From: Gymnothorax reevesii
Lineage: Eukaryota; Chordata; Actinopteri; Anguilliformes; Muraenidae
NCBI GenBank assembly: GCA_029721435.1
Contig: CM056577.1
Location: forward strand, 29,604,719 to 29,668,718
Length of the DNA stretch: 64,000 nucleotides
Reading direction: 5' to 3'
Below the pieces are notes generated by a model that had not been told where the DNA came from, did not search any database, and was given only the letters and a program-made list of their open reading frames with translations. Positions 2,406 through 44,400 of the stretch are shown one piece after another. The first letter of the stretch is position 1, and each line of letters starts with the position of its first letter. The position numbers were made by a program, and so were the translations under genes.

Positions 2406-5400
2406 CTGGAATACACAAACAGGGAGAAAAAAAGAGGCATAGATGAATATAAAAAATACCGCATTATTGTACAAGCAGTTCTAAAACGGATCGGCACATA
2501 GTAACTGAGTTGCCTGCTATTGTCAATTCTGTGGCAGCATGGTAAGCAGGGCTTTCTAGCCAAGGTTTTTATTTTTTAAATGACAGTTATGCAGTCGATT
2601 ACCCTGCAGACCAATATGGGTCTAAAGGCCTTTCTCAAGGGCCCAACTACACTATTCTATTCTAGCACTATTCTTCTGAAGGATACACCGATGTAAACCA
2701 CCAAGCCACAGGGTACAGATATGACAACCACCAGGCCATACACCACCCTACTCGAGGTGGAGTCCTAGCTCTGTTTGAATAGAATATTAACTTGTAACTG
2801 ACAGTTACGTCACAGTAGGAAGTAAAATTTTCTTATCCCATTAGCAAATCTCAAAATAAGCCAAACTGCCGCACATGACTAGAAGAGTTCTTTCAGTGTA
2901 ATTTACCAATTAAGTAATTGATAATTCAAAGTCTAACATGCAACTAAAATTAGATTTTTCGTGTATGCAGTGAGGTTTATTGGCTGATCTCAGATCAGAT
3001 CGCAGTGCCATGTATTTTCTGAACTGAAATCAGAGCACAGTGACAGGAAAATGCAAAACAACCAGTACCTCACCTCATTTTTAGCTTTCGGGCAATTTAA
3101 ATATTTAACTTTATCTTACTTCACTTCCAGCTGTTCTTATTTTAGCTGACTCATTTGTTTTTATCTTAACTACCCTTTTGGGTTCATTACCAGGCCCCTC
3201 CCCTAGGGGCCCAGGTTAAGCAATGATCGTGTGTGTGTGTGTGTGTGTGTTTCTGTCAGTCTGTCTGTCAGCCCGTGGCTGGGGCCAGGTCTGCTATCTC
3301 TGATTGCCTTGTTACTGGAATATTTTCACTTTTTATTATTTTTACTTTCCATATACACTGCCCAATCTAATGTTTCTAATTATACATGTGGTGTCTAGGA
3401 TCTTGTTTATTGTTTAATCGGCTATACTGCAAATGAGACATCTACCTCAATGCATTTCCGAGTTAAAATAAAGGTTGAATTAATGTTTGCTGCTCTCAGA
3501 TCGGGAAGTGCAGGGTAGGGCAAACGGCTCCCTCTGTTGGTGGACTCACGCATTGCATCTCGCGGCTGGTGAAGATGCGCGGCAGCAGGAGCATCTTGAG
3601 AGGGACTGTGAGGATGAGGACGAAGGGGAAGGCGAGGGAGGCGGCGGTCGACATGACGGCCCACAGCACAGCCAGGCACACCATCTGAATCGCGGTGAAC
3701 AGGTGCATGCGCAGGGTGCGAACCTGTGTGCACAGAGGAATATGGTCTGTCACCTCTGCCCCAGAGCACCATGCTTTCACAACAAACACACACACACACA
3801 CCTTGCGTACATAGATGTGGTCAGGGTAAGTACTGACCTTGCGTGCGTAGATGTGGTCGGGGCAAGTACTGACCTTGTGTACGTAGATGGGGTCGGGGTA
3901 AGTACTGACCATGCGTACGTAGATGTGGTTGGGGTAAGTACTGACCTTGCGTACGTAGATGTGGTCGGGGTAAGTACTGACCTTGCGCACGTAGATGTGG
4001 TCAGGGTAAGTACTGACCTTGCGTACGTAGATGTGGTCAGGGCAAGTACTGACCTTGCGTACGTAGGTATGGTCGGGGTAAGTACTGACCATGCGTACGT
4101 AGATGTGGTCGGGGTAAGTACTGACCTTGCGTACGTAGATGTGGTCAGGGTAAGTACTGACCTTGCGCACGTAGATGTGGTCAGGGTAAGTACTGACCTT
4201 GCGTACGTAGGTATGGTCGGGGTAAGTACTGACCATGCGTACGTAGATGTGGTCAGGGCAAGTACTGACCTTGCGTACGTAGGTATGGTCGGGGTAAGTA
4301 CTGACCTTGCGTACGTAGGTATGGTCGGGGTAAGTACTGACCATGCGTACGTAGATGTGGTCGGGGTAAGTACTGACCTTGCGTACGTAGATGTGGTCGG
4401 GGTAAGTACTGACCTTGCGCACGTAGATGTGGTCAGGGTAAGTACTGACCTTGCGTACGTAGATGTGGTCAGGGCAAGTACTGACCTTGCGTACGTAGGT
4501 ATGGTCGGGGTAAGTACTGACCATGCGTACGTAGATGTGGTCGGGGTAAGTACTGACCTTGCGTACGTAGATGTGGTCAGGGTAAGTACTGACCTTGCGC
4601 ACGTAGATGTGGTCAGGGTAAGTACTGACCTTGCGTACGTAGGTATGGTCGGGGTAAGTACTGACCATGCGTACGTAGATGTGGTCGGGGTAAGTACTGA
4701 CCTTGCGTACGTAGGTATGGTCGGGGTAAGTACTGACCATGCGTACGTAGGTATGGTCGGGGTAAGTACTGACCATGTGTACGTAGGTATGGTCGGGGTA
4801 AGTACTGACCTTGCGTACGTAGATGTGGTCGGGGTAAGTACTGACCTTGCGTACGTAGGTATGGTCGGGGTAAGTACTGACCTTGCGTACGTAGATGTGG
4901 TCGGGGTAAGTACTGACCATGCGTACGTAGATGTGGTCGGGGTAAGTACTGACCTTGCGTACGTAGGTATGGTCGGGGTAAGTACTGACCATGCGTACGT
5001 AGGTATGGTCGGGGTAAGTACTGACCTTGCGTACGTAGATGTGGTCGGGGTAAGTACTGACCTTGCGTACGTAGATGTGGTCGGGGTAAGTACTGACCTT
5101 GGGTACGTAGATGTGGTCGGGGTAAGTACTGACCTTGCGTACGTAGGTATGGTCGGGGTAAGTACTGACCATGCGTACGTAGATGTGGTCAAGGTAAGTA
5201 CTGACCTTGCGTACGTAGGTATGGTCGGGGTAAGTACTGACCTTGCGCACGTAGATGTGGTCAGGGTAAGCACTGACCTTGCGTACGTAGATGTGGTCGG
5301 GGTAAGTACTGACCATGCGTACGTAGATGTGGTCGGGGTAAGTACTGACCTTGCGTACGTAGATGTGGTCGGGGTGGTATTTGGGTGGCATAAGCAGAAG

Positions 5401-8400
5401 TAATATGCGCTCGGTGAGCTGAATTCCATTCAGTGACATCACACCCATGTAGAGGAAGATCCCGAACAACACCGCGAGGGGGATCTGCCGCAAGAGGTCT
5501 CCGATTACGATAGACAAACCTGGGGATGGAGGAGGCAGTGATGGAAGGATGAGAGGAGAACAGAAAGATGGAGACATGAGAAGAGTTGTGAGTTAATGCA
5601 CTGGCTCTTCATGTGAGCAATTCTCTCTATCCTCTTGAGTTTGACCCAAGCTCAGCCCTCTAATTTCTCTTTCACTATTCTTAAATTCCATATCTGACAT
5701 TTCAACTTGATTTTCTACTGTCTTGTAAGGTAACTTTTGAAGAGATTTCAATGCCAATGGAGTATTGTTGGTTAAACATAAAGTTAAATAATCATTGGAT
5801 AAGTTGACTGTGCACATTGCATGAATTACATTGGACTCTTACCCACTAAAATGGCGACCAACAGCGCAGTCACCCGCTGCTCCTTGACCTCCTGAATGCG
5901 GGGCTTGTCTCCAGGGGCGACGGCCTTGCTCATGACTGTGAGCGCGTTGACGTGGGTGACCGAGCGCACGGTGGCGGCAGCCAACCAGGGCAGGCCGAAC
6001 ATGGAGGTGATCCCGCCCACCGTGACAATGATCATCAGGTCCATGTGGAAGCCTGTGCCCTTAACGAGCATCCGCTCCTTCTTACTGAGGATCAGCCTGG
6101 GAGCCGAAACAGCAGGAGGGAGGGACAGGGAGGAGAGGAGAGAGGGAGAGGGGAGGAATGAGGAAAGGAGAGGGTGATGAGTTGTCAGAGTTGGCAACTA
6201 AATGTAGATGGGGATTGAGAACATATGGTCCCATCCCACTGAAGAGTATAACTGCAGTTCCTAAACAGAAGGCCTGTTTCCAGCGAAGAAGTTCCTGGTA
6301 GTGTTTGGGGGGGCAGGAACTACTACAGGAATGTCCTCTCACTCGGCCCTCTCAACTGCCGTGTCTCCACTGAGAGGGCGAAGCAGGAGAACTCCTTTTA
6401 ACAACGCGACCCCTCGTCGTCTGCTGAGTTTTAAAAATGGTGACTATTTTGACGCTTTCTGTAGACGTTACATCCCGCCCTGAGTAAATCCAATCAGCGC
6501 CAAGTAAACCCCAAGCCCCACCCAGAAGTTTTTCAGGGCCGTTCAGAGTACCTGCTCCAATGCAGGGACTTTTTTAGCCCCTGTAAAAGTTCCGGAACTC
6601 TGTCCAGCGGTGGAGGCACGCAACAACGGGCCCGGCCCAGTAAAATTACCCCGAAGTTCCTGCGGTGGAAACAGGTCTAAAGAGAGCTGCAACATGAGGG
6701 TTCCAGAGAATTAGGACACGAGGCCATTTTATTTCCATTACATTATCGGGCACTGTCTGCAAGTTCATTTGTTTTTTTTTTTGTTTTCTCTTTTCTCAAG
6801 TCTAAGAATTTCCTCCCTGATGCTTGTCGAAACTATTGCTGGCTAGAATATCATATATCCACACAAATTAATACATTTCCCTGCCAAGAAAAGAACAAAA
6901 AAAATTCTACAATTTCCATTGTGCCCAACGCCTCAGTTTTGCGTGATGGAAACAAAATGGCTCCAGTTGTTGCAACTCTCTTTATGTAGGGACTCTAAAC
7001 ACGACACAGAGGGTTTAAAGTGCTTGAAAGTCCGAAAAAAAGACACTGAAACAAGACCTGTGTCATTCTGTAGGTCTTAGTGAGCAGATAAAGAAAATGC
7101 AAAAATAAAAAAAATCTCAGACTTTCAAGCACTTTAAACCCACTGTGATGATCTTTGAAATGTCAGGATTTCGGAATTCAACTGATGTCACAGCATAGTG
7201 GTTAGGTGACCAGAAATGATTGTGGCATATTCAGATTGAACAGTAAAATCGCGCATTTGTGATCTCACATGCTAACGAGTTGGCAGAAGAAGGGAATTCT
7301 ATGCATTACAGGCAAACACTATGCAAGGAAATTTAATGAGGAGCCACAGAGAAGACTGCTTTTGGCCCATATGTAATCCACTGGGCAATTTTCCGAGCAG
7401 TTTCCTCATTACAATTAATCAAAGAGCAGATTTAGATTCAAAAGACTACTGTGCCTGCAGCATTGTAATGTTCAGAGCACGCAACTCCATGCCTTAAAAT
7501 GCCGGACACTCACGAGGTGATCTGCGTCTCCATGAAGATGAGAATGAAGACCAGCAGGGCGGGGAGGATGCTGGCGGCCATCATCCAGATGGGGAACTGT
7601 CCGTTCGACCCCAGCGGGTTAATGATCCAGCCCCGCTTCCCCGGGCTGGTTACGGAGAAGCCACTTGGCACACTCAGTTTCTACAGACGGAGAGGGCAAA
7701 CGGTAAAATCGAAACATGATCAGGGTCACACATGACCAGGAGGCCAACATGAATGGCAACTGTAGTTGCCCAATGGTGTAAGATATCAAAAACAGATGCT
7801 GCTGAAAACCTATCATGCAGCAACTTGTTTAAAAGAGCTCGCGCGGGGGGGGAGGGTTAGGGGAGCCGCTCCCGCAGGGGAGCTCTTTTAAACAAGTTGC
7901 CACATGATAGGTTTTCAACCGCTCAGGATAATTAAATTAATTAAATAATAAAATTTTTTATTCCTTGAAAATTTATTCAGCGCTCAAAGGGTTAATGTTC
8001 AAATGTTCAAAGTTGGCCAAGGGGAAATTTAGCACAAATATTTGGTAGAACAATACTGTGCAAAAATTTTAGGCACCCCACACTTTTAAAGATTTACATC
8101 TGCCCTTAGATGTTTATTTCTTGTTTTCCTCATTAGTGTTGCTGTAGATTGAAAGTATATTTGAATTCTAAATCTTTATTTAAAAAATTGTTTAATAAAT
8201 TTATGATGGTATTTCATTAAAAACAGTCGACACAGATAGCAACATCATCATGGCTGTCCGCAGTTGCTTGGAGGGACAGACATAAGTGGGACAGTCAGTC
8301 TGTAGAAGAACAGTGGCAAGTTTGAAACTCTGCTTGGAACAACCAAAGAGCCAATCATTAAATAGAACTTGCACAACAGGACATTGTCCCAAATTTTTAG

Positions 8401-11400: not shown

Positions 11401-14400
11401 GGTGGAGACCCGGTTAACCCCGTAAAACCCAGTTTGCAGCAGATGCATTAAAACCTGTGGAACTGTAGACCCATTTCAAATTCTAGTGGAGATCCCAAGG
11501 TTTCCAAAGATCCAAAGTCTGTGTCCTACTGAATTAGAGGGATATGTGCAAAAAATCGAATACAAGATCACAATTTGTTTTCCCATTTGATGACGTGATG
11601 CAGCCATAAAAAAAAGTGAAATGTGGAATAATTTTGAAAGTAAATACATTTTTGTAAGAGCTGGGCATAGGAGAGCGCAAATAGAATTTTGGCAGAGAGA
11701 AGGCGACGTTTGAGAACACGAGTACAGTGCTGTGCAAAAGCAGGGAGAACTTGAGGGCCCCCCATATTTTTGGAAGGGTTGAAAGGAGTACCTGCATGAT
11801 AGCCTAAGGAATCGGCCTCTTGCACTGAAATACTCTGGACATTTGGTGGCAAATAACACCACACTCAAAAGGATGCCAGAGCTCCTTCAGGGACACAAGT
11901 ACACCGTTATGTCTTAAACATTATCAAGTCATTACTCTGCTGCCGCGGGAAGCAAACCGAATAAGCGGCCAGTTTTACTTGTGTTAGTGGGTCACCTTGA
12001 CTAGTTGCAACAGAACAGAAACTCACGGAAAAAAAGGCCTCCTCGAACACCAGCACTGGCCCGGAGAAACCCACAATCAGTACAGGGTTCGCCCCAATAA
12101 TGCTGAAGATGATACCCTGTATGGAAGTGGCTATGATCATTTCCGACACACCAATCAGGCCGTCCGTCTTCTCACCTGAGGAATCGAGAGAGAGAGAGAG
12201 GCAGAAAAAATGAGAGAAAAAGACAATGAGAGAGAAAGAGAGAGAGAAGGAGAAGGGAGAGAGAGAGTCTAATTATTATCTTAGTGATTTCATGAAGAAC
12301 CTGATTTATGAAGACCTTCATCAGGAGTGAAGACTTAAATGTACATGCAAGACTGGAAACATCACCAGCGATTTGATATGATATTTATTTTGCGTCAATT
12401 GTAGCATTATTAGTTTTGTGTGATCAGAAAGATTTTGCTTGAGCTAAAAATCTCTGGCCGTGGCACACTGAGGTTTGAGGGCTCTTACATCCAAAATCAA
12501 AAGAGCAGCTGTCTGGTCAAGACCATTAACGCGGTTTATTAAATATCCTTGATTTGCTCTTTGGAGCATCAGACAAGTTTGCAAATCTTAGTTTTTTTCT
12601 CCATTCTTTATCTTCAATCCCTTAATGCCCCTCCACCCCAGACTCACTCAGCAGCCCCCCAAAGGTGATGGCGGGAGAGAGGGCAGCGAAATAGATGAAG
12701 ATGATGGCGGCCATGCACTGTGGATTCATGGCGTCCTTGAAGTCGCTGATGTACTTGGGGTAGCGCCGGCGGGCGTCGCGGATGACCCCTCCGAAAAGAC
12801 GCCCGGTTCGCTTCAGGGGATCGTCGTCGGGCTTGAAGGGCACGAGGAGAGCTTCAGAAGCACATCGAGGGAGATAAAAGGAAGAAAAAATTGACACTAT
12901 GGAGTTAACTAAACGCAGGTTAGTGAACCAGACCACATCTAAAATGCCGCTGCAATCATCCACGTCTGAACCAACCAGCCTATTTATACCGCCTTCATTC
13001 TACAATCCTCATCTGTCTTGTTCAACGTCCTTCCCTCCCATTCTCTTCATTTCTCACCCTGTGACTCTATAGGAACACCCGGGGACTCTAAAGAGCCCAC
13101 ATGACTCCAAGAAGAGACGTGACTCCCACCCTGAGTCTCGTCGCCCGGGGGTTCATGTTATCCTGCTCCAGTCTCCATCAACTCTACTGCATGCCGTCCT
13201 TCATCAGTACAAATTCCCATGCCTATCCAATTCAATAAATAAATATCTACTACTGTTTTACTACTAAAATCACCTACTATTTTAGGTGTGGCCCAGAATT
13301 CATTAGGTTTACAATAATCGTACTGAGCTGAAGTTTGAAGCAAAAATAACAAGTCGACATGGTCTACAACATCCCCCGCCAATCGTGCGCTTCTCATTTT
13401 CGAACTCAATCAAGGCCTTTATGGTCTGAAGCTACACACCAAATTCGGTTACTGTATCTGTAGTAGTTTCTGAGTAAAGCTGTCCCCTTTATCTCGGACG
13501 GACGGACGGACGCACACACGGACGGACGGACGCACGGACGGACGGACGGACGGAGGTCAAACCTATATCCCCCTCCCACTTCGTGTTGGCGGGGGATAAT
13601 AATATGATACCAGAGAGTCTGGTTTCAAACCTCTAGTGCACTTACATCTCAACTCGCTATAGAAATGTAGCTGGTCTTTAGGGACAAGCAGTGCTAAACA
13701 AATAGGTTTGATACGGTGAAATCCATAAGTATTAGGAGACAATATGTAAAAATGGCAAATATTCCACTGGACTTCACCAGATATTGATGCAAATATGCTC
13801 AAATTTTGCTGGCAGCTTGTACTAATCTCATATTCCTTTTGTCAATTACATTTGCCAGAGCATGGAGTGAAAATAAAATGAAAGCATGTTGCAGTATAAA
13901 TACAAATGGACTGCACTGAAGGTCCACTTGCTGAGTATCCAGAATTTTGCGCTGCGGTTAGCAGTCAGATGGCTGCTACAGAATACGGAAGCCATTGAAC
14001 CTAAAAGGACAGAGCCCGTGACTGACACATCATTAGCATTAGCATACCTTTGTCCTCCGCGCTCTTCGGCTCCTTGGCCAACAGTTTCACCTCCTGCTCC
14101 TCCCGCTTGCGGAGCATCTCCCGCTGGAATCTCGCCACCGATCTCAGGAGTTCCTCCCCGCCCACCTCTGAGGGCGGAAGAACTATACTGCAGTCCAGGA
14201 AGCTGTTGATGGCGTTCAGCAGGTCCTGACGGTCATCGGCCAAGTAGGCCGCCTCGTGGAAGTGCTGTGGAGAGCAAACAGGCGACAGTGAAGAGCTGAA
14301 CTGGACTTCAGAGTCCCTTGAGCCATAATGAAACTTATACGGCAAAATGCAAGTCCTTCATCTTTCCTGACTATTGTAACCTTTCGACATACAAAGCATA

Positions 14401-17400: not shown

Positions 17401-20400
17401 CAATTGAATACACTGCAAAGACAAGATGTTTAATGTTCAAACAGAGAAACTTTATTTTTTTTTGTAAATAATCATTAACTTAATGAATTTAAAGGCGGCA
17501 ACACATTGCAAAAAAGTTGGCACAGGGGTCTTTTTACCACTGTATTACATCGCCTTTCCTTTTAACGACACTCAGTAAACGTTTGGGAACTGAGGAGACC
17601 AATTTTTGAAGCTTTTCAGGTGGAACTCTTTCCCATTCTTGCTCGATGTACAGCTTAAGTTATTCAACAGTCCGGGGTCTCCGTTGTCATATTTTACACT
17701 TCATAATGCGCCACACATTTTCAATGGGAGACAGGTCTGGACTACAGGCAGGCCAATCTAGTACCCGCACTCTTTTACTATGGAGCCATAGTAAAAATAG
17801 CCATGGTGCTGTTGTAACACGTGCAGAATGTGGCTTGGCATTGTCTTGCTGAAATAAGCAGGGGTGTCCATGAAAAAGACGTTGCTTGGATGGCAACATA
17901 TGCTGCTCCAAAACCTGTATGTACCTTTCAGCATTAATGGTGCCTTCACATATGTATAAGTTGCCCATGCCTTGGGCACTAATACACCCCCATACCATCA
18001 CAGATGCTGGCTTTTGAACTTTGCGCCTATAACAGTCCAGATGGTTCTTTTCCTCTTTGGTCCGGAGGACACAACGTCCACAGTTTCCAAAAACAATTTG
18101 AAATGTGGACTCGTCAGACCACAGAACACTTTTCCACTTTGCGTCAGTCCATCTTAGATGAGCTTGGGCCCAGCAAAGCCGGCGGCGTTTCTGGGTGCTG
18201 TTGATAAATGGCTTTCGCTTTGCATTGTAGAGTTTTAACTTGCACTTGCAGATGTATCGACGAACTGTAGTTACTGACAGTGGTTTTCTGCAGTGTTCCT
18301 GAGCCCATGTGGTGATGTCCTTTACACACTGATGTCGGTTTTTGATGCAGTACTGCCTGAGGGATCGAAGGTCACGGGCATTCAATGTTGGTTTTCGGCC
18401 TTGTCGCTTACGTGCAGTGATTTCTCCAGATTCTCTGAACCTTTTGACGACATTACGGACCGTAGATGATGAAATCCCTAAATTTCTTGCAATAGCTTGT
18501 TGAGGAATGTTGTTTTTAAACTGTTCGACAATCAGCTCACGCATTTGTTCACTAAGTGGTGACCCTCGCCCCATCCTTGTTTGTGAATGACTGAGCATTT
18601 CAGGGAAGCTGCTTTTATACCCAATCATGTGCACCCACCTGTTCCCAATTAGCCCGTTCACCTGTGGGATGTTCCAAATAAGTTTTGATGAGCATTCTTG
18701 AACTCCCTCCGTCTTTTTTGCCACTTGAGCCAGCTTTTTTGAAACATGTTGCAGGCATCAAATTCCAAATGAGCTAATATTTGCAAAAAATTACAAAGTT
18801 TACCTGTTCGAACATTAAGTAACTTGTCTTTGCAGTGTTTTCATTTGAATATAGGTTGAAAAGGATTTGCAAATCATTGTATTCTGTTTTTATTTACGAT
18901 TTACACAACGTGCCAACTTCACTGGTTTTGGGTTTTGTATATACTACTCAGAATTTGATAGGGATCATAGGAATTTTTATGTGAAATGACATGCAAATTT
19001 GGTAACTGCCACTGATTAGCAATATATTGGATAAATGACATGCAGTCAGACACAAAACACATTTGCACGTGCATTTCATGAATTTAAATGAGCGTGCAGC
19101 CTCCCATTTTGGCAACACTTCACCATTTCAACTCAGACGTGTGTGTTGCTGGTTTGTGGAAATTTGGAAGTTCCCAAATTATTACATTTAGCAATAACAA
19201 TGTCTCCTCAACGTCTTAGACATCAACTGACTTCATAGCAATTGGGAAGATGCATCGGAATGCTTGACTCTGGCTCCTCACAACGTCACGTTGCTAATGC
19301 ACTTAACGTCAGCCAAAGCGTTGTGAACAGAGCGTGGAACGGGCATCAAACGTTTGGTACAGCAGCACACCGTCATGGGGGTGGTCGTCAGAGATCGACT
19401 ACACAACGACAAGACCACTTTCTCACACTTCAGGCACGACGTCATGCTTTCTGGACAGCCACCACCCTACGAAATGACCTTCATAACGCCTCGGGGGTCA
19501 GGGTATCCACTCAGACGATATGGAATAGTCTTCAAACTGCCAGCCTCAACTCAAGAAGGCCATGTGTTCGAAGGCCATGACCCACAGACCGTGCGTCATA
19601 GACGTGACCGTTTGGATTGGGCTCACGATCATGTCACATGGACACACAACGATTGGGCTCCAGTTCTCTTTACTGATGAGTCCCAATATTGCTTGGACTT
19701 TACTGACAGGAGGCAACGGGTGTGGCGAAGACAACGTGAGCGATTTAATGATGCCTACATCAACGAACACGACCGTGATGGTGGCGGATCAATTATGGTC
19801 TGGGGAGGAATAAGCAGGAATGGCAGAACGGACATGCATGTCATGGGGAGAGGGACGATGTCAGGGGTATGGTACAGGGAAGATATCCTCAATGTGTACG
19901 TAAGACCATACGCTGGTGCTGTTGGCCCTGATTTCATCTTGATGGATGATAACGCCCGTCCCCATCGTGCTAGGGTGGTTAATCAATTCCTAGAGCAGGA
20001 GACAATTGTCAGCATGGACTGGCCCACGCGTTTGCCAGACCTAAATCCTATCGAGCATGTGTGGAACATGCTGCAGGTCGCCATTTCCGGTTGTAGGGCA
20101 CAACTCACAACTCTAGAAGAGCTTGGAAATGCCCTTGTTGAAGAATGGAATAACAGTATGACCCGACATTGTCAAGCCGTCATTCAAGCTAGGGGCGGCC
20201 ATACCCGTTATTGACATTAACTGTGGTAATGAAACATCAAATGAACACTGTCTGTTTTCACTTTACATGTCAGAGGTGAAACCATGAAGTGTTCGTGAAA
20301 GCCAAAGGTGTGAGGCTGCACGCTCATTTAATGTCATTAAATGCACTTGCAAATGTGTTTTGTGTCTGACTGCAAGTCATTTATCCAATATATTGTTCAT

Positions 20401-26400: not shown

Positions 26401-29400
26401 GATCCAGAACCACGGTCCTCCCCGGATCTTCAATTCACGCTCTCCTCAATAGGAATCACATCTGGTTTCAAAATGATAAAATGGAGCAATTCAAATTGCC
26501 AAAATCGAGGTTTCCTAAATTGTATGCTGAATCCAAAAGGTGACGTCACCGTTGCTTCGTCCATCTTTTTATACAGTCTATACTCTCAACAGGGGACTTG
26601 TATTCAGTCATCGCCCTCTACTGGCATGCAGTGGCATAAAAAAAAACTGCAGTTCTTGTGGTGTAACGAGGTGACTATGACACGCTGGCATCCGAAGTTA
26701 AATTGCCAAAAACTTCATCCATAAACTGTTTTAAAAATTCTCACTTAGTTAAGGTGCTGCATCTGCGGAGCAGTAGTGACTACCACAGCACGGGTTCGAT
26801 CCCCAGTCGCACCAACCGGCTGTTGTCGGCAGCTTTTTCGGAGCTGGCTACGCGCACGATTGGCTACGCGCTGCAGATTGGGAATGGGTCTGCCGGGAAG
26901 GGATACGAAAAAATGGTTGCTTTGTTCGTAGTTCAAGTGCCTCCTGTTGGCCAGCCTGTTGCTCATCAGTAAAACTCTAGGCTTGCTCATGTTCGGGTAT
27001 CCTCCGCCCTCGTTCTGAACTTGCTAAGTTTTTCGACCTTTGAGTGCAAAGAAGCAGGGGCTGATAGGCCCGTGCTTCAGAGGAGAGCTGCGAACGGTCT
27101 CTCTCTCCTGTGCTGGCAACATGGGGTCGCATACAAGCAAGCTTTGCACAAAGTTCTTGAATTGGGCATTCCAGATTGAGGTGGGTTTGGAGATGCTGAA
27201 GTTAAAAAAAAATTCACTTTAGAAGTACTTCGCATTATTTTTAAGCATTCATCGATTTCAACCCCATGGAATTTGTAACTACAAAGTAGCTACAAATGCT
27301 ATTTCTCAAGACCTTTGTGAATTATAATTTATACTGTTCAATTTTTAGCTGACAAACTAAACCCATTGTTTGTCAAAAAACTGTATGTCCCATCAAGTTG
27401 TTCCCAAAGCAAAAAAGGAATTTGCATCAGAAAGCTGCAACCTCTTGGCCATCTTTTATAGCTGATAGCTATCCAGACTGAAAAACAAGACAGCCTGGTG
27501 ATGTAGCTAGCCAATTTGAGTGATTGCCAATACAAAAAAAAAAACCCTGATGTGGCTTTTTCACCCAAATTTCTTATACACTGGGAACTGCCACACTTCC
27601 CGTGCACAGCTTACGTAGCGGCATGACAACAACAATTAAGCTATACTTGAGGAACAGCAAACAATATAAACGCTAAAATCAAGCCAAGAAAAAGTACTGG
27701 ATGCATGAAGAATTAATACAGCTTCTACACTCGGTATCATACGCAAAGTATCCATAACCATACACGCTAACACAACTTTTCCTCTGCAGCTGCACGAGAC
27801 CAGAAGCGACTTGGCCACCAAACTATCCCATAAAGCATTGGAAATGGGGCTTGATTGCAACGTCTGGGTATTTTTTTGTATTGCCAATCGCTCTAATTAG
27901 CTACCTGCTCTATGTTCTGCTTTGTTAGCCTAACCTAGGTAGTCATCAAATTATGTAGCTTGCTAATACCAATTTATGCATTTGGTCAACATCAGGTTGC
28001 AATAAAACCTATTAGCCAACGTACTACCTAACCAGTAAAGATATCTGTTCCTCCACTAAAAAGCTTGCAACCGAGCTATAGCATATCTGCCAACATGCCC
28101 CTAGTAGAATCGCGAATTAATTGCTTTTCACTGTTGTAAACCGATTCCTATGTACTAAATGTAGGAAGTTATTAGCTGTCTTCAGAGCAAACTAGCGGGG
28201 CAGTTAATCAACCTCACCAACACTCTGCTAAAGCTAGCCAGCTAAATCATCACAAGTTGCCATCTCACTGTTCTCTATTGATTCTTATGCACCACATGTT
28301 TGCTTGCTAATAGCAGCCTACTATGAAATAAGTTCACTCGGTCAAAGGTTTGACTGGTTTCCGAAGATAGCCAAGGGCTAGCAAACAAAGAATCGACTTT
28401 GTTTTCGCCACTTTATGCCTCTGATCAGCCTCTGCTGTGTGACAGCCGTAAACTTTTGCTGAAACTGAGGTAACTGATTGGCCGGGCTCGAATCACTGGC
28501 CATTCGCACTTTTGTTTATTGGATGTGCTGTTTCCAAAAATGGATGACAAACTGGACAAGTCTAAAAGTACAAGTTCAACAATAAACTGCAAATTTAATG
28601 TGCTCACTTGCATCTGTATACCCCACAGGTCAATCTCGGAGCGCGCTGGCTCATAAAGTTAATTCAATTTCAATTAATGCCAGAAAGTATCCAAACCCCA
28701 TTATTAATTTCTATAGGGACTTTACCTCTGACACCAGAATATGCCAACAGCAATGTTGTCACCTCAGGACTCTATACTGCACTTCCAGGTTTCAAAAATC
28801 TTTCGTAGCGGGGCTAGCTTGGATAGTCTGCCAGCAAAGCGTGGAGCAATGTAGGACAATAGATCTCACGGCAGCTAATAATGATAACACAACATTATAT
28901 TGTGATATATAATGCGAAAAGAAAAAAGAATGTTGCAACAACTTGTTGCCACTCTTTAGCTGACAGGTGAAAAGTGTTCAGAGTCTCTCGATTAATGCAG
29001 AGGCCAGGGTTTGTATCCCACCGAGAGGAGACCATCGTCTGGAGGCCAGGTCTGGAGCCCCAGCCTTGTGTGAGGTATAGCTCTGTAGCCCTTACCTAAT
29101 GCAGAGCATAGTGCTGAAACCCTTATCATATGCAAGTTGCAGCTCAAAGCCCTTATTTGATCCAGTGTACAGCTCTGGAGCTCATACCACGCGTGTGGCA
29201 CAGCTCTGGAGCCCTAACCTCGTGTGTGGCACAGCTCTGGAGCCCTACCTCGTGAGTGGTACAGCACTGGAGCCCTTACCACGCGTGTAGCACAGCTCTG
29301 GAGCCCTCACCTGTCACGGTGTTTGCCTGCAGGCCCTTCCCCCTGCTGCATTCTTTGCCTCCACCTTAACGAGCCACACCTATTGCTCCTTAAGGTGGAG

Positions 29401-32400
29401 CTGAAGCTTTTGTATTTAAGAGTGGGCTGCACCTGCGTTTGTGCGGCAGTATTTTGTTGGTCTCCTGAGCCCTGCCATGGTATTTCTTGCTGCTGCTGCT
29501 GCTGCTTCACTCTGGGACAATTTGAATCTTTATATTTCTAAATTAAAGAATTATTGTGTTTTTACTCAGCCTGTGCGTTTGGGTCCCTCTAACTTCTTTG
29601 GGAACATGGTCCCAGCGCCCGCCGGCTTTGTTTCTTGCCGGCTGGCCGAAATCCATGACATAACCTCGTGTGTGGCACAGCTCTGGAGCCCTAACTTATG
29701 AATAGTACAGCTCAGGAGCCCATTCCTTGTGCGTGGCACAGCACTGGAGCCCTACCTCGCATGTGGTACAGCTGTGGAGCCCTTAACTTATGCAGGGTAC
29801 AGCTCTGGAGCACTTACCTCGCGTGTGGCACAGCTCTGGAGCCATACCTCGCATGTGGTACAGCTCTGGAGCCCTTAACTTATGCAGGGTACAGCTCTGG
29901 AGCCCTTAACTTATGCAGGGTACAGCTCTGGAGCACTTACCTCATGTGTGGCACAGCCCTGGAGCCATACCTCGCGTGTGGTACAGCTCTGGAGCCCTTA
30001 ACTTATGCAGGGTACAGCTGTGGAGCACTTACCTCGTGCGGGGTGCGGTCCAGTTTCCGGATGCGGGTGCATGGCTCCTTGTGTTCCTTACTGACGTGCA
30101 CCTGCCCCTTAGTGCTCTTCCTGACCAGGTGACGCCGCACGCCGGGGACATCCTCAAACCTGTGACCTGGGAGGGAGCAAGGGATAGAGGGAGGAGAGAG
30201 AGACGAGGGATGGAGGAGGCAGAGATAGAGGTGGAGGAAGGGAGAGCGAAAGAGGTGGGAGGGAGGGCGGGAGAGGGAGAGAGAGGGAGGTAATAGGCGA
30301 GAGAGGGAGAGAAAGATGTAGGCATGGATGAGAGAGCGGAAAGGAGGGAAGAGAGGGATAGAGAAAGGTAAGTAGAGAGAGAGAAACAGGGAGAGAGGGA
30401 AAGACAGGGAGGATGAGGAGAGACAAAAAGGGAGGAAGTAAAGAGCTGTTTTTACTAACTGCTTGTTTTCAGAAAGCTGCATCAACTACAGAAACGGGGT
30501 GATGGGTTTTGCACCAAAAAGGAAAAATCCAACTGATGAATCACTTTCACCTAAGAGTTGGCTTCATAGATGGATGAAAACACATGAAAACTCCTCTACC
30601 TATCCTGCTTTAGCCATGACCTCATCACACAACCTCCCTCTCAGCCAATTAGAGCAAAGCAGTCACTTTTCCTTAACTGATTTCAAACTGGCCGTGGACA
30701 AACAAGACAAGCAGTGCAAAAATAAAAAACAATGAACAATACTTGTTGGGATTGACCTTTTTTTTTTTGTCTGCCCAGTGCAGGCCAGGCTTGCGGTTCC
30801 TAACACAAACCTATTCAAATGGGTTTGAGTCTTTTCTGTTTGTGAGAAGAAAAAGAAAGGTGATGACAAATCTAATAATTCCCCTCACGGACCGACTGCC
30901 AACCTTACTGCCATTTTCCCAGGCTGCCTAAGATTGCGAATGGAATCTTGGGTTCCACCTTGGATGGAACAAACAATAAATATAATTTAAGACGTCCCTG
31001 ACACCATGAACCCACAGGGAAGTCCTCCCCTCATTGCAGTGATGGAGCCATGATCACAGCCCCCTTTTTTTCTAATTTCTACCAGCCAATAATCAATAAC
31101 CTTCCCAGGCAACTTGCTTTTAAGCCACTTGAGGTAGATGATCACACATATAATTAGAATGCTCTATTCAAGCTGCTCAACAATCTTCATACTGAACAAT
31201 CTCAATGCATCATAGCTGGGCTGGCAATCAAAAGTATCAAAGTTCTTCGACAAATTCTTTCTTAAAATATATTTCTAGAGACTGCATCCTCTACATCGCC
31301 CCCTGCTCATGCAAAAATTAAACGTTTCGGGCTCTTTCGGACCGCATTTCCGCCCGTCACACCATGTACTGATATCAACACATTGCAGGAAACAGCTTGT
31401 CAGAACAAAGCTTCAATTCTGGATAAAATGGAAAGTATGCCTTTGGCTGACGGGCATGGATCAGATCATCCCTGGAAATACGTAATGGAATTACCCTAGC
31501 GGCATCTTACTCCGCGATGATTAAAAAGTTTTCGGGTGTGATGACCGGCTCCCTTTACGTAACAAAAGAGCGCGGCCAAAACCCCCCGCGGTTTCGGAGG
31601 TGTGTCACTGACGTCAGCGAGCAGGGGTATCCAGCCACTCGTGAAATACGGACCGGTGAGCGAGATAGCATCTTCAAAGCATTCTCGCCCGCACTCCTAT
31701 TAAAACCATGGGCGCGCCTCAGTTACCTAATGGCTCTGCACGGTTGGGCTGTAAACGAATACAATGGATGCGCTTGATTAATTGCTCGGCTTTGGAGTAG
31801 GCGCCCAAGGGTGGGACGTCAAGGCCGGTGGAAGTTAATTAAAATCACAACGTCAAAGGTGCAATAGACCAAGTTATAGCCCCAGCTCGCGAACCCCTCC
31901 AAGTTCCGCACGTTATCTGTGCTACGGATGCGCGCGCTCGCACGCGCATCATGTATTCAGTTCATTACATTCAACTGCAACCATAACCGAGAAGCGCTCG
32001 CGCGTCAGCGTATTGAACAGTACTCACTCTACGGTTCGAGTCTGTCAAATCAACTGTCGAAGAATTATTTCGAAATTACGTCTTTTTTCCTCCGTGGATC
32101 GCAGTAAAGTTCCCTTTCAGTCAAAGCAGTCTTTTGTTCAGCTCACGTCTCTCAAGAGGCGCACAAACAGGAGCACGAGGGAAAACAAAAGAGAAGCAAA
32201 GAAAGTTCAGACGTGGTGGGCAGCGCCGACCCTCTGACGAAAGACTGACATTCCGACACAATTGATTGCGTGGATAAAAAAAAACAAATGAAAAATTGAA
32301 TGTCATGCAGAAGCTCTTAACAGCTTATGATCAGTTTTTGACAGACACAGCAGATTTTAAAAGTTAATTAATTAAAAAGTAGTTATTTCGGTGCAATGAT

Positions 32401-38400: not shown

Positions 38401-41400
38401 TGTACGATACAGGTGATCATCTTAGGGTTTATCATGTGGCGACCGCAGTAGAGTCTAGCGCATTAAGTTTCACATCTTGAGTGCATCACAATGCTATATT
38501 TTTCCACGGGCAAAAGCACTAAAGCCTTGTACAACCCCAATTCCGAAATAGTTGGGACAAAGTGTAAATTGTGAATAAAATCAAAAGGCAATGACTTTCA
38601 AATCACACCAGCTAGTATTTTATTCACAAGAGAACAGAGATATTATAGCAAATGTTGAAACTGAGCAATTTTACAATTTTATCCACCAAATTAGCTCATT
38701 TCAAATTTGATGGCTGCTACAGGTCTCTAAAAAGCTGGGACAGGGGCCTGTTTACCATGGTGTAGCATCCCCTCTTCTTTTTAACACAGAGTGAAGGAGT
38801 CTGGGCATTGAAGATACAAGTTTCTTGACTTAAGCCATTGGAATTTGATCCAACTCTTGTTTAATACAGGCTTCCAGGTGCTGGAGAATTTTGGGTCTCC
38901 TTTGACGGACTTTTTATTTAATTATGCGCCAAATGTTTTCAATCGGTGAAAGATCAGTACTGCAGACAGGCCAGTTCAGCACATGGACTCTTCTACTATG
39001 AAGCCATGCTGTTGTAATAGCTGTAGTATGTGGTTTTGCATTGTCCTGCTGAAATACACAAGACCTTACCTGGAATGCTCATCTGGAGGGGAGCATATGT
39101 TGCTCTAAAGCCTTTATATACCTTTCAGAATTCATGGTGCTTTTTAAAACATGCAAGTGTCCCACACCAAATGCACTAATGCATCCCCATACCATCAGAG
39201 ATGCTGGCTTTTGAACTGAACGGTAATAACAGTAGGGGTGTTCTTTCTCTTCTTTAGCCCAGAGGACACAACGTCCACTTCAAACAAGAATGTCAAATTC
39301 GGACTCGTCTGACCACAGGACACTTTGCCACTTTGCTACAGTGCATTTTAAATGAGCCTTGGCCCACAGAACATGGCGGCGCTTCTGGATCATGCTCAAC
39401 AATGGCTTCCTTTTTGCATGATAGAGTTTTAGGTGGCATCTGTGGATGGCACGGCAGACTTTGTTTACAGACAGTGGTTTCTTCAAGTATTCCTGGGCCC
39501 AATTAGTGATGTCAATGACAGAATAATGCCGGTGAGTGATGCAGTGGCGTCTGAGGGCCCGAAGATCACAGGCATCCAGTAAAGGTCGTTGGCTTTGTCC
39601 CTAACACAGAGATTTATCCAGTTTCTCTGAATCTTTTGATGTTATGCACTGTCGATGAGCCCTTTCAATTTACATTGAGGAACATTGTTTTTAAAGTATT
39701 CCACAATTTTTTTATGCAAGCCTTCACAGGTTGGAGGGCCTTTGGCCATCTTTACTTCTGAGAGACTAAGCCTCTCTAAGGCATCCCTTTTATAGCCAAT
39801 CATGTTACATACCTGATGTCAGTTAACTTAATTACTTGCTAAATGTTCTTTCAGCTGATTCTCCTATATATTAATAGCCTTTTCAGCCCTTTTTTGCCTG
39901 TGTCCCAACTTTTTGAGACCTGTTGCAGCCAGAAAATTTGAAATAAGAGCATTTTGTGGATAAAAATGTAAAATGTTTCAGTTTCAGCATTTGAAATGTT
40001 ATCCATGTTCTATTGTTCATAACCTATTGGCTCGTGATCTGAAAGTCATTGAATTTTGATTTTATTCACAATTTACACTTCGTCCCAACTGTTTCGGAAT
40101 TGTGATAGTACTTGCTGCACTGATGAAAGTAAGCCTACTGCCCACTTTGAATTATGTTTTTGTAGTGATTCATTATTTGTTCTCCGGCTCCTCTGACACC
40201 GCCGGGGTTGCAGCTGGAAAAAAAAAAATCCATTTACGCCATAAGAATACATCCTCGCATCACGTCAATTTAATGAAATACGCAACTGTAATTTTACTGA
40301 TGGGGCAGTGACATTATAAACGATTGGATACGCACATCCCTATACCCAATAGGCTTCGTGCTGGATCATATCCTGTAAAGCAGAAAAGGAGAGAGCTGCG
40401 CTCACTAGCCCACATAGCGCCTGTTGTCATGATTTACTGCAGCAGAAGTAAAACTAAATTATCACTATTGCTGCAATAGCCCACATGCAATCATGATTAC
40501 AGGAGTTATGTGCAGTGATATTATCATTATAATTAACTTACGCATTTACACAGTCAGTGATTTTTTTGCCAACTGTCCTTTCTGTATTTGGCAGCTGCAG
40601 CAGTGTTGATTTTTGCCAGGATGATATGTTTATTCTCTTCATGTTTTTATTAAGAGCACTTGCTCCGCATTTGAAAAGTGTGCAGCTTTATTTCCAGTTG
40701 GTTTGTCCACGTTTGCAACTGGTCATTTGTTTCAAACCCCGACCCTTTTATGTGAGCGCACACGTACCTAGATTGGATGATTGGAAAACCTTGGGTTCAG
40801 CTATCGAGTTGAAAACTGGATTCGTGGTGCAGCTGATCAGGACTGCAGAAGTCTGGTTCTGAGCAGCCAGAGAACTCAGAGAAACCCGGGTGTGTTACTC
40901 CAGCTCTATGGTACAGGCCCCAGGTGTCTTAGATGTTCACACACTGAGTGTAATTCTGGGCCTGTATGTTGGTGCAATGACTTATGAGTTAGTGCTTGCA
41001 TGGACACACTGGCTGGGACTTGTGCATGTGTGTGCATATTGACCAGAACTGTGCATATGCACGGACACACTGAGAAGAACTTTTGTGCATTGGCGTGAAC
41101 ACACTGAACGGGACTTTATGCATGTGTGGACATAATAAACCTGATTTATCAGTCCTGTGTGGGCACATGCACGGTGCCCTTCAGCTGATGTCGCAGAAAG
41201 AGGAGACCGTCGTGTTCTCTTAGGCAGATGGACTGACTAAAGAATGAACATGCTGACTGCGACCTTACGCTGAAGTGTGTACATGTTGACTGTGACTTAC
41301 CGCTGAAGAGTGAACAGACTGACTGCGAATCTATGCAGAAGTGTGAAAACACTGACTGTGAGGGTTACACCGAAACATGATCGTGTTGATTGTGACTGTG

Positions 41401-44400
41401 TCACACTGACTACACCTGCACACCCTAGTCTGAGTCTCAGTGTCGGTATCAGGAGGGGGCGTGGCCTGTGACTGTGTCACACTAACTATACCTGTATGCC
41501 CTAGTCTGAGTCTCAGTGTCGGTATCAGGAGGGGGCGTGGCCTGTGACTGTGTCACACTGACAATACCTGCACGCCCTAGTCTGCATCTCAGCGTCGGTA
41601 TCAGGAGGGGGCGTGGCCTGTGACTGTGTCACACTGACTATACCTGCACACCCCAGTCTGAGTCTCAGTGTCGGTATCAGGAGGGGGCGTGGCCTGTGAC
41701 TGTGTCACACTGACTATACCTGCACGCCCTAGTCTGAGTCTCAGTGTCGGTATCAGGAGGGGGCGTGGCCTGTGAATGTGTCACACAGACTATACCTGCA
41801 CGTCTGCAGTCTGAGTCTCAGTGTCGGTATCAGGAGGGGGCGTGGCCTGGGACTGTGTCACACTGACTATACCTGCACGTCTGCAGTCTGAGTCTCAGTA
41901 TCGGTATCAGGAGGGGGCGTGGTCGGATGCCCCTCCCCTTCATGCTGGCTGTGCGATTCTTCCTCGGCCTCGTCCTCCTCCTCGTCCTCCTCGATGGTGG
42001 CGGTGCTGCCGCCGCTCGCTGACCCTCTCCTCCGCCCCGATCCTTTCTTCTTCTTGCTGCCTTTCTTCTTGCGTCCGTCCGGGGAGACGTGCTTGGAGAG
42101 GGGGTGGTGGATGTGATGGGAGGAGTGACGGTGGTCTGAACAGAGAGGTAAAAAAAAAAAAGAATTTCAGCAGCTGCATTTAGCTCAGGAAACCACTAAC
42201 AGTGGAGGAATCAGATGTGTAAATGGAAAATAGATCCAAAAATTAGAACAAACTCATATTTTCTTCTGGACAAAAAGTAAAAAAAAAACTTAAAGCAAAA
42301 AAACTAAGAAAAGACAAACTTTGAGGATCTACATTAAAGCTCTCTTACAAAGCCAAAAATCCGGAAAATATGTACAAGTAGTTCTAGATTTATATTTCAG
42401 CTTAAAAAGTAATATTACATTTATTTTTTCACTCAAAAAGCCCAAAATTCCACCATTGCAGTGAGGCATTTTGACTTGTGACAAGATTTACCCATACGGA
42501 GAGAAAATTTCACAAGTCAAGCATACAGCAACTCAAAGGAAGCTAGTTTCCACTTGAGCGAGAAATAATAAGATTGAAGTCTCATAATGAGATTAAAACT
42601 TATTAAGACAGACTTTCCACACAAGCTTATTTCTGTCTCCAGAGGCCTTCTGCCTTGTTTGTTTTTTAGCTTATTCTGTATCAAAAGCCCTCCCCCCTTC
42701 CACTCATAAAGCAAACAGTAAGCTTGAACAAGCTAATGTTTTGAGCCTCATTACAAGATTAAAACAGCCAAGTTTTGCAGTACATAACAGTTAATTAGTC
42801 CACTCAGACATATACCACCTTGTATTGGCTAATTTTGTACTGAGGGGCCAACTCGATGTGTTTGCAGAGGTCAGCGCTCCAGTCTGCGACCAAGATTTAC
42901 GTTTTGCGACTTACATTCTCACATCGGTCGCGACCAACATTTCACGCACTGTGTGCCTATTCCGCGCAGCGATTCTTATCAGCCACCGGCCGCAAATTTT
43001 TTTCTGCAGGTCGGTTGGTACCACTACGTACGTCAGCCAATCACAGATCGGCTGGTGTCATCAGCCAATCACAGCTCGACTGTGTTCATGCATCGACGAG
43101 AACGGCAAAGCATTCGACCTTGTCACTGTCAGCTGGGTTGGGCGCGCGGCAAATGTGTAAAACCTTATCTGACAATAACGACGCAAATGCTCCACAAGAC
43201 GCAAAACTACAAGTACACTAACTGGTGTGCAACAGAAGTCCAATAGTCTACGAACTAGGCCTTGGCTTCGGCGACTAATAGTGCAGATTGGAGAGCAAAT
43301 TTCATGATGTCAGAAAGTGTTTTCATTGCCGGTTTTTTATTTCGCCACTTAATTTTTGCGCATTTCTGAGGGTAATGGAAACGTAGGCTACCTAGAGAGT
43401 GAGAACGATGTCCGACGTTATTAGCCTAAAAACACAGTGTGCTTAGTGACCATAGACTGTTCGTGACAGGTTTGAGTCTTGTTGATACCAGCTATGGGTG
43501 CTTGCGTCCAGTAGCGAATGGTTTTATTTTGCGTTTCATATCAATCGCTCACCTTCTATCCTGATGGATTAGGTTGGATGCGCACTTCCACTCTGATCTG
43601 AAGTTCTGCATGTACATGATTATTCATTTCATGCAGTATGTATGAAATCGATGGTCCGAGTGCAAGATTATTTATTTTCAATGGAGTACGATAAAGATGA
43701 GAAAAGCTGCGGTTCTTATAGTTTTATAGTCCGTTTTCTTTGGGGTTCCGATAATTGGCCAGCTCTCTGGGGAATAGTGTTTTGTCTATTGCAGCAAATG
43801 TTAAAAACTGATTCAAAAACTAACTGTAGACGCCTGCCCAATGTAGGCTACTCCAGCAACGACCATAGGCTTATCAGCGCAATGCCTCAAATATACTGAG
43901 TACAAATGAAAATGCACCACTTGAAAAAAAGTCAATATTTAAGTTCAAATGAACTTCAATATCATTTTTATACAACAACAACAACACTACAGTGACGTCA
44001 CCCGACATGCCAGGAGCAAGAAATGCGAGAATTTCAAGTTAACTGTAACGCTAGGCAATTTTTTGCAAAACGCAACATCTTGCACGCACACCACGGGAAA
44101 AGTGAATTTTATTCTGAATTTGTGCACACATTGCCTTTAAAAGCATGTTAATCCGAATAATATTTCACTTCTTCACTGACACTTGTGAATCGTCGACACT
44201 ATGCCGCGACTTACAGCCCCTGAACGGGAACGTGTCATAGGCATGCTTCAAATTGGCGCCAGCACCAGGGAAATTGCCAGACGACAACACTGCGCACACA
44301 CAACGATCGCAAGACTCCAGCAAAGGTTTATACAAACGGGGAGCACTCGGGACCGTCCTCGACCGGGTCAACAACGTGTGACAACGGCACGTCAGGACCG

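Follow-up and report, generated by a model that had tools for sequence, protein, structure and literature searches.

In this paper we describe a 36-bp minisatellite in the AE2a (SLC4A2a) gene of the moray Gymnothorax reevesii, in which the last part of a coding exon is copied along with its 5' splice site, so that 44 splice donors stand in tandem. Our analysis covers a window of 64,000 nucleotides (C5:29604719-29668718 of a 2,173,976,663-base assembly) and shows the position, register, donors and reading frame of the array, the neutral variation among its units and two sister arrays in the same gene. We think it likely that the array is a neutral minisatellite seeded at an AE2a 5' splice site, with the first donor used in most transcripts and a small in-frame leak.

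The gene lies on the minus strand, and the best protein match to the joined query of 738 amino acids is the AE2 of Gymnothorax javanicus (P0001), with 96% identity. Using tblastn of P0001 and junction mapping we placed 21 minus-strand exons of AE2a between about 46.4 kb and 2.3 kb; the same approach did not find an exon for P0001 residues 1-20 in the window. Three transposase-like open frames with DDE_3 and/or HTH_Tnp_Tc3_2 matches, presumably Tc1-like, lie between the mapped exons (17690-18757 on the minus strand, 19327-20211 and 44189-44806 on the plus strand), and TRF detects an array of 15 CGGA tetranucleotides at 13495-13554, also between AE2a exons. At about residues 560-590 of P0001, close to where another exon starts, there are two copies of VDFLEQPT separated by a VFVSAC-like stretch. 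This doubling is found in one of 240 proteins, P0001 itself, and looks as if a duplication had crossed the acceptor of the exon in question; a second copy of this type is absent at the same exon of the window.

The exon at which the array begins starts with LSIVIGDLL and occupies 5350..5519 on the minus strand (170 nt, with a phase-0 3' end), and its own donor starts at 5349. TRF describes the minisatellite (3800..5375) with a period of 36, 43.8 copies, 92% matches and 0% indels. Read on the minus strand, the array comprises 43 complete units in a single register and a final copy of the exon end, giving 44 donors that step from 5349 and 5313 down to 3801. Donor 44 is followed by an intron tail of 78 nt (3724..3801, minus strand), which goes from a GT run to the acceptor, and then by the next coding exon (3550..3723, minus strand, mapped in the same way), which starts VRTLRMH at 3723 and ends REMQC. 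In gene sense the unit reads GACCACATCTACGTACGCAAG|GTCAGTACTTACCCC, that is 21 nt of exon end and 15 nt of intron start. The first-pass annotation had proposed that an AE2 exon end is copied in tandem with its 5' splice site, and this is borne out by the presence of the exon end and GT in all 44 copies (32 AAG|GT and 12 ATG|GT). It was also right about the recurrence every 36 bp without a register break and about the 12-residue peptide of the unit. Its figure of 21 exon nucleotides per unit stands in the register that it chose, but the identity with the exon reaches 26 nt, as ACCCC occurs on both the exon and the intron side of the unit. The donor 9-mers are AAGGTCAGT in 31 copies, ATGGTCAGT in 12 and AAGGTGTGT in one, corresponding to AAG|GTCAGT, ATG|GTCAGT and AAG|GTGTGT. 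The 44 donors are thus not identical, since 12 of them lack the A at -2 and the most 3' donor runs into the GT run. With head-to-tail units within about 10-100 bp the array is a minisatellite, and as it adjoins an exon and has a donor in every unit (44/44) it can also be classed as a donor-including VNTR.

The intron itself appears to be old. In AE2b, the paralogue in this genome, the corresponding exon end reads CGCAAG|gtcagg, and therefore a donor with C at +3 (GTCAG) is probably ancestral. Many open frames of other vertebrate AE genes also run past this exon end into intron-like sequence, losing the coding frame at this very residue. The array may have been seeded when a tandem duplication spanned the 5' splice site of this intron, and a first duplication between the two ACCCC matches would yield exactly 36 bp. 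Slippage or unequal exchange could then have expanded it in a selectively neutral way. CATACC (His-Thr) is carried by 14 of the 43 units, Thr is common at the corresponding place in other eels (P0002-P0004) and AE2b of this genome codes it as ACC. From these residues the array may be older than the Thr to Ile replacement shared with G. javanicus, in which case it would be expected in that species too. There are 17 unit types, and their order shows shared sub-blocks without a strict period. This variety, and the single match of the array in the 2.17-Gb assembly, speak against the idea that the real array is far shorter and its length an artefact. Tandem arrays can be mis-sized and we rely on one assembly, but the anatomy described here would hold even for a short array, and we regard such an error as very improbable.

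All 44 donors give an open frame without a stop when joined to the next exon. The unit had been described from the start as a multiple of three and stop-free in the AE2 frame, which is correct for every donor and also for the 78-nt tail. One open reading frame (3496-5592, minus strand, 698 codons) spans the exon, the array, the intron tail and the next exon, and retention of the whole intron would likewise keep the frame. That every donor is in frame is what a protein-lengthening device would need, and this counts against our preferred reading. The array is open in three of the six frames, which makes openness cheap, and a unit length divisible by three is expected one time in three by chance. 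The 43 full units differ by 13 distinct changes, of which 10 are nonsynonymous and 3 synonymous, where chance would give 70-74% nonsynonymous, 21-27% synonymous and 2-5% stop changes. This is a neutral pattern. Less than one stop is expected among 13 changes, so that the absence of stops says little. K to M is carried by 12 units and R to P or H to P by single units, as expected without constraint. A single one of the 13 lies within the donor 9-mer (P=0.13), a weak hint of donors being kept.

The open frame also raises the question whether the last donor at 3801 alone is used, with the array constitutively coding and an intron of 78 nt. Such a length is workable for a small intron, and by a matrix for donor strength donor 44 scores slightly higher than donor 1 (9.4 versus 8.4), which counts against dominance of donor 1. 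However, the exon would be 1718 nt long and would place 516 residues, whose units vary at the neutral ratio and carry the unconstrained K to M, R to P and H to P changes, at a site that has no insert in nearly all listed homologues. We see hardly any chance that this is how the gene is spliced.

Of 7474 matches to AE proteins, 120 homologues were listed, and 119 of these have no insert at the site (118 by a contiguous pattern and P0076 by eye); the remaining one, P0008, is aberrant there. The closest homologue among the matches listed, P0001, is without insert, and this protein of another species agrees with a canonical first donor. A protein search for array-bearing proteins found more than one array unit in none of the 120 matches listed, beyond which there were 101 further matches, and none of 3643 candidates of about 695-2210 amino acids scored at E<=0.001. 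Aligning the same exon in related species had been suggested as a check of the protein-lengthening idea, and the alignment revealed no repeat of the unit in any listed homologue. For a reading of the array as a coding-exon VNTR, all 44 donors are open, but no listed homologue has a repeat and the ratio of nonsynonymous to synonymous changes is neutral. In open-licence PubMed Central papers we found no report of the AE2a array. The site corresponds to residues 1157/1158 of human AE2, ten residues after K1147. In the available part of a structural report, K1147 and H1148 of the PIP2 site belong to a lipid-binding helix between TM12 and TM13 (PMC10810954). Extra units would therefore lengthen the stretch between that helix and TM13. 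The predicted 12-residue steps before TM13 stand, but donor k would add 12(k-1) residues and not 12k as first written.

Two further minisatellites in AE2a copy donors. One AE2a exon (41873..42135, minus strand, donor at 41872) is followed by an array of seven units of 76 bp at 41391..41922 on the minus strand, the first two units being 77 bp long. Its unit holds 47-48 nt like the exon end and a CAG|GT donor. The other array, with 12.3 units of 31 bp at 29663..30038 on the minus strand, stands at the end of the exon ending RKLDRTPHE (30033..30166, minus strand, donor at 30032). A detached part with 4.6 units lies at 29169..29311 on the same strand, with other sequence between. Some of the 31-bp units carry CACGAG|GTAAGT-like donors, and in these donor-bearing units about 6-7 nt resemble the exon end. 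The arrays were identified by TRF and from their sequence, and in both the first unit consists of an exon end and its donor. Joining to the next exon gives a stop for all six extra donors of the 76-bp array and for all eight extra sites tested in the 31-bp array (six in the main and two in the detached part), the test there covering those possible donors that read AG|GT[AT]. In these two arrays the exon-proximal donor is thus the one able to make protein, and P0001 is continuous at both junctions.

For the 36-bp array, we suggest that most transcripts would use the exon-proximal donor at 5349, as no other donor lies nearer to the upstream acceptor across the 170-nt exon, and that the other 43 copies would be spliced out within the 1626-nt intron. 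A small share of transcripts probably takes a nearby later donor, adding 12 residues per unit before TM13. The upstream intron has 323 nt. The choice of donor changes the exon from 170 nt with donor 1 to 1718 nt with donor 44, and the intron from 1626 nt to 78 nt. In the available sections of Carranza et al. (PMC9225289), the upstream one of two equal strong donors was used exclusively in minigenes with 365-nt flanking introns. The border of exon definition is given there as about 250 nt, with shorter introns favouring the downstream donor even at matched strength, and before donors are matched for strength the downstream one is preferred in about 60% of human events overall. The same sections describe that with very weak equal donors the exon was mostly skipped in two larger-exon minigenes. 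In human ABCA7 the accessible text puts retention of one repeat unit at about 2±1%, if the second of two 'respectively' values is assigned by text order (PMC5954066). From these minigene and ABCA7 results, as far as the two sources were available, donor 1 can be expected to dominate, with a leak that would be in frame, unlike that of ABCA7. Some points count against this dominance. Donors 40-44 leave introns below 250 nt (78-222 nt), where the downstream donor may be favoured, and would be the likeliest other competitors. The C at +3 of the moray donors is rare, and weak equal donors led to skipping in the minigenes, which might apply here too. In ABCA7, moreover, exon 19 was skipped at 12-45% by tissue, and the canonical form does not always make up the majority.

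If the 44 donors competed more evenly, AE2a proteins would carry between 0 and 516 extra residues before TM13, with a size set by copy number. The stop-free frame of all 44 donors, the identity of 31 of the 44 donor 9-mers and the position of donors 40-44 within the short-intron range that favours downstream donors would fit such a ladder of isoforms. The neutral ratio of 10 to 3 and the lack of multi-unit proteins among the 120 matches listed and the 3643 candidates argue against it, as does the low retention of one unit, about 2%, in the accessible text on ABCA7 (PMC5954066). The 76-bp and 31-bp arrays, moreover, cannot act in this way. We consider the ladder unlikely, and the protein-lengthening idea of the first-pass annotation is unsupported, with three of six frames open, neutral unit changes, stops in both sister arrays and 119 of 120 listed homologues without an insert. 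A bolder version holds that moray AE2a is length-tunable, with co-transcriptional donor choice adding net basic 12-residue blocks, allele copy number and splicing together setting the ladder and the two other arrays only throttling output; to this we attach even less probability.

Another possibility is that the decoy donors titrate U1 and so lower or vary AE2a output, or cause a neighbouring exon to be skipped, as might be the case in ABCA7. In the available text on ABCA7, longer arrays go with more exon 19 skipping, which ranges from 12 to 45% by tissue, and with lower expression (PMC5954066), although the cause is not proven there. The presence of three donor-copying arrays in AE2a alone would suit this idea, which we judge doubtful but worth keeping in mind. 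It is compatible with, and not opposed to, a neutral minisatellite. We also considered whether RNA structure hides donors, as 324 nt of exon end and array fold more stably than 100 shuffles (z=-5.1). This was rejected, since tiled shuffled units fold nearly as stably (z=-0.96, 35 of 200 at least as stable) and the structure is mostly a property of tiling.

Three donor arrays in one gene and an acceptor array in another led us to expect an enrichment of arrays at splice junctions, but it is absent. A strict AE2a scan, requiring at least 2 further copies within 3 kb and leaving out one acceptor, scores at 3 of the 20 donors and at none of 20 acceptors. It also scores at 96 of 2000 random positions, 90 of which are within kilobase bins of the same three arrays. 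The scan applied across genes required at least 3 copies within 1 kb. In AE2a it scores at the same 3 donors out of 20 and at none of 21 acceptors (3/41 junctions), as well as at 13 of 115 intron positions, of which 11 lie within or next to the three arrays. For 62 other SLC4 exon matches (55 in L032-L051 and 7 single loci) one donor and one acceptor edge score, against 10 of 348 intron positions 250-750 bp away. By this one criterion AE2a and the other SLC4 genes give 5/165 junctions versus 23/463 intron positions (Fisher P=0.38), where edges outside AE2a are those of HMM matches and not proven junctions, and control positions are not independent. With a threshold of at least 2 copies instead of three, 0 of 40 Ion_trans edges (20 exons) are crossed by a minisatellite, compared with 2 of 40 controls. 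Arrays are about as frequent at splice junctions as at intron positions, and a hotspot is not shown. The clustering of arrays within AE2a is weak once the 36-bp array, our starting observation, is left out. With it, 3/41 junctions compare with 1/164 edges elsewhere (124 SLC4 and 40 Ion_trans; P=0.026), a count that leaves out a (GT)n microsatellite at an SLC4 donor (L045, C15:12291041) and the Ion_trans donor edges L065 (a TGAT microsatellite) and L058; without it the AE2a figure is 2/40 (P=0.099). Keeping the (GT)n case and omitting Ion_trans gives 3/41 versus 2/124 (P=0.099), or P=0.25 without the 36-bp array.

The other SLC4 donor case is thus the GT microsatellite of L045. In two SLC4 genes a GT run starts directly at a 5' splice site or a few bases from it, there and at 3801 of the window. 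The acceptor case, L039:58-522 (C9:39587058-39587522), consists of 17.1 units of 27 bp with 60% matches, in which a pyrimidine tract and CAG|GCTTTT are repeated upstream of the true acceptor at 518. Out of 12 upstream AG|G[CT] sites listed, four are in frame and open and eight are not. This array of tandem 3' splice sites is a mirror image of the donor arrays. At L058 (C7:49421208-49422216) an array of 5.9 units of 31 bp, with CTCTCTCCAG in the unit, lies in an intron of an Ion_trans gene and starts about 100 bp into it. Tandem AGGTAAGT triplets have 576 matches across the genome, compared with 435 for the pattern read backwards, and the matches cluster, the first 100 rows representing 4 arrays. 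These four were inspected: L052 and L053 are without a recognised exon and L054 is mostly N. In L055 (C1:129485200-129486200) the minisatellite ends about 25-50 bp from the donor of an exon on the opposite strand, which we take to be PHACTR-like.

The AE2a array offers a natural experiment on how one 5' splice site is selected when the spliceosome meets dozens that are nearly the same, with AAG and ATG donors as built-in graded variants. The intron would measure 78 to 1626 nt according to the donor used, and the gene also contains two sister arrays with extra donors that give stops. Dominance of donor 1 would support an extreme case of a proximity rule acting across the exon; otherwise a vertebrate transporter would have an isoform ladder. 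RNA-seq data for G. reevesii (SRP430070) come from one cDNA library that combined RNA of muscle, gonad, brain and liver (PMC10387071). The last 21 nt before each donor are common to all, and junction reads therefore need at least 30 nt upstream to tell donors apart. A donor-1 junction has CCACCCAAATACCACCCC upstream of GACCAC...AAG joined to GTTCGC, and a later donor has ACTTACCC-type sequence there.

Our results suggest that donor VNTRs of the ABCA7 type, which in humans are linked to Alzheimer risk, also arise in vertebrates other than man. According to the available text, the VNTR in intron 18 of ABCA7 has a 25-bp unit in about 12 to 427 copies, and the first two bases of the unit are the canonical exon 18 donor (PMC5954066). 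As in AE2a, a minisatellite adjoins an exon, the donor is in the unit, GT is present in tens of tandem copies and the intron grows with copy number. The ABCA7 unit is not a multiple of three and starts at the donor GT, whereas the 36-bp unit of AE2a is in frame and includes 21-26 nt of exon. AE2a has two further donor arrays, unlike ABCA7 as described there; length variation and splicing effects are known for ABCA7, while AE2a is read from one assembly. The competing equal 5' splice sites of the minigenes (PMC9225289, available sections) are likewise near-identical donors with one acceptor, but two in number there and 44 in AE2a. Tandem copies with splice signals are also known from intron gain by tandem duplication, for instance the 24-nt repeats around gained introns in fission yeast, in the parts of these papers available (PMC4974935, PMC3629103). 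In AE2a the intron is old, AE2b sharing the exon end and the GTCAG donor, and only donor copies were added. Among fish, the intron repeats of Sparus aurata MSTN-2 and GH (PMC3045353, in the part available) come close in position, as the block is also at the 5' end of the intron and is length-polymorphic in MSTN-2; there the MSTN-2 block is about 150 bp in 1-2 copies, compared with 43.8 copies of 36 bp in AE2a.
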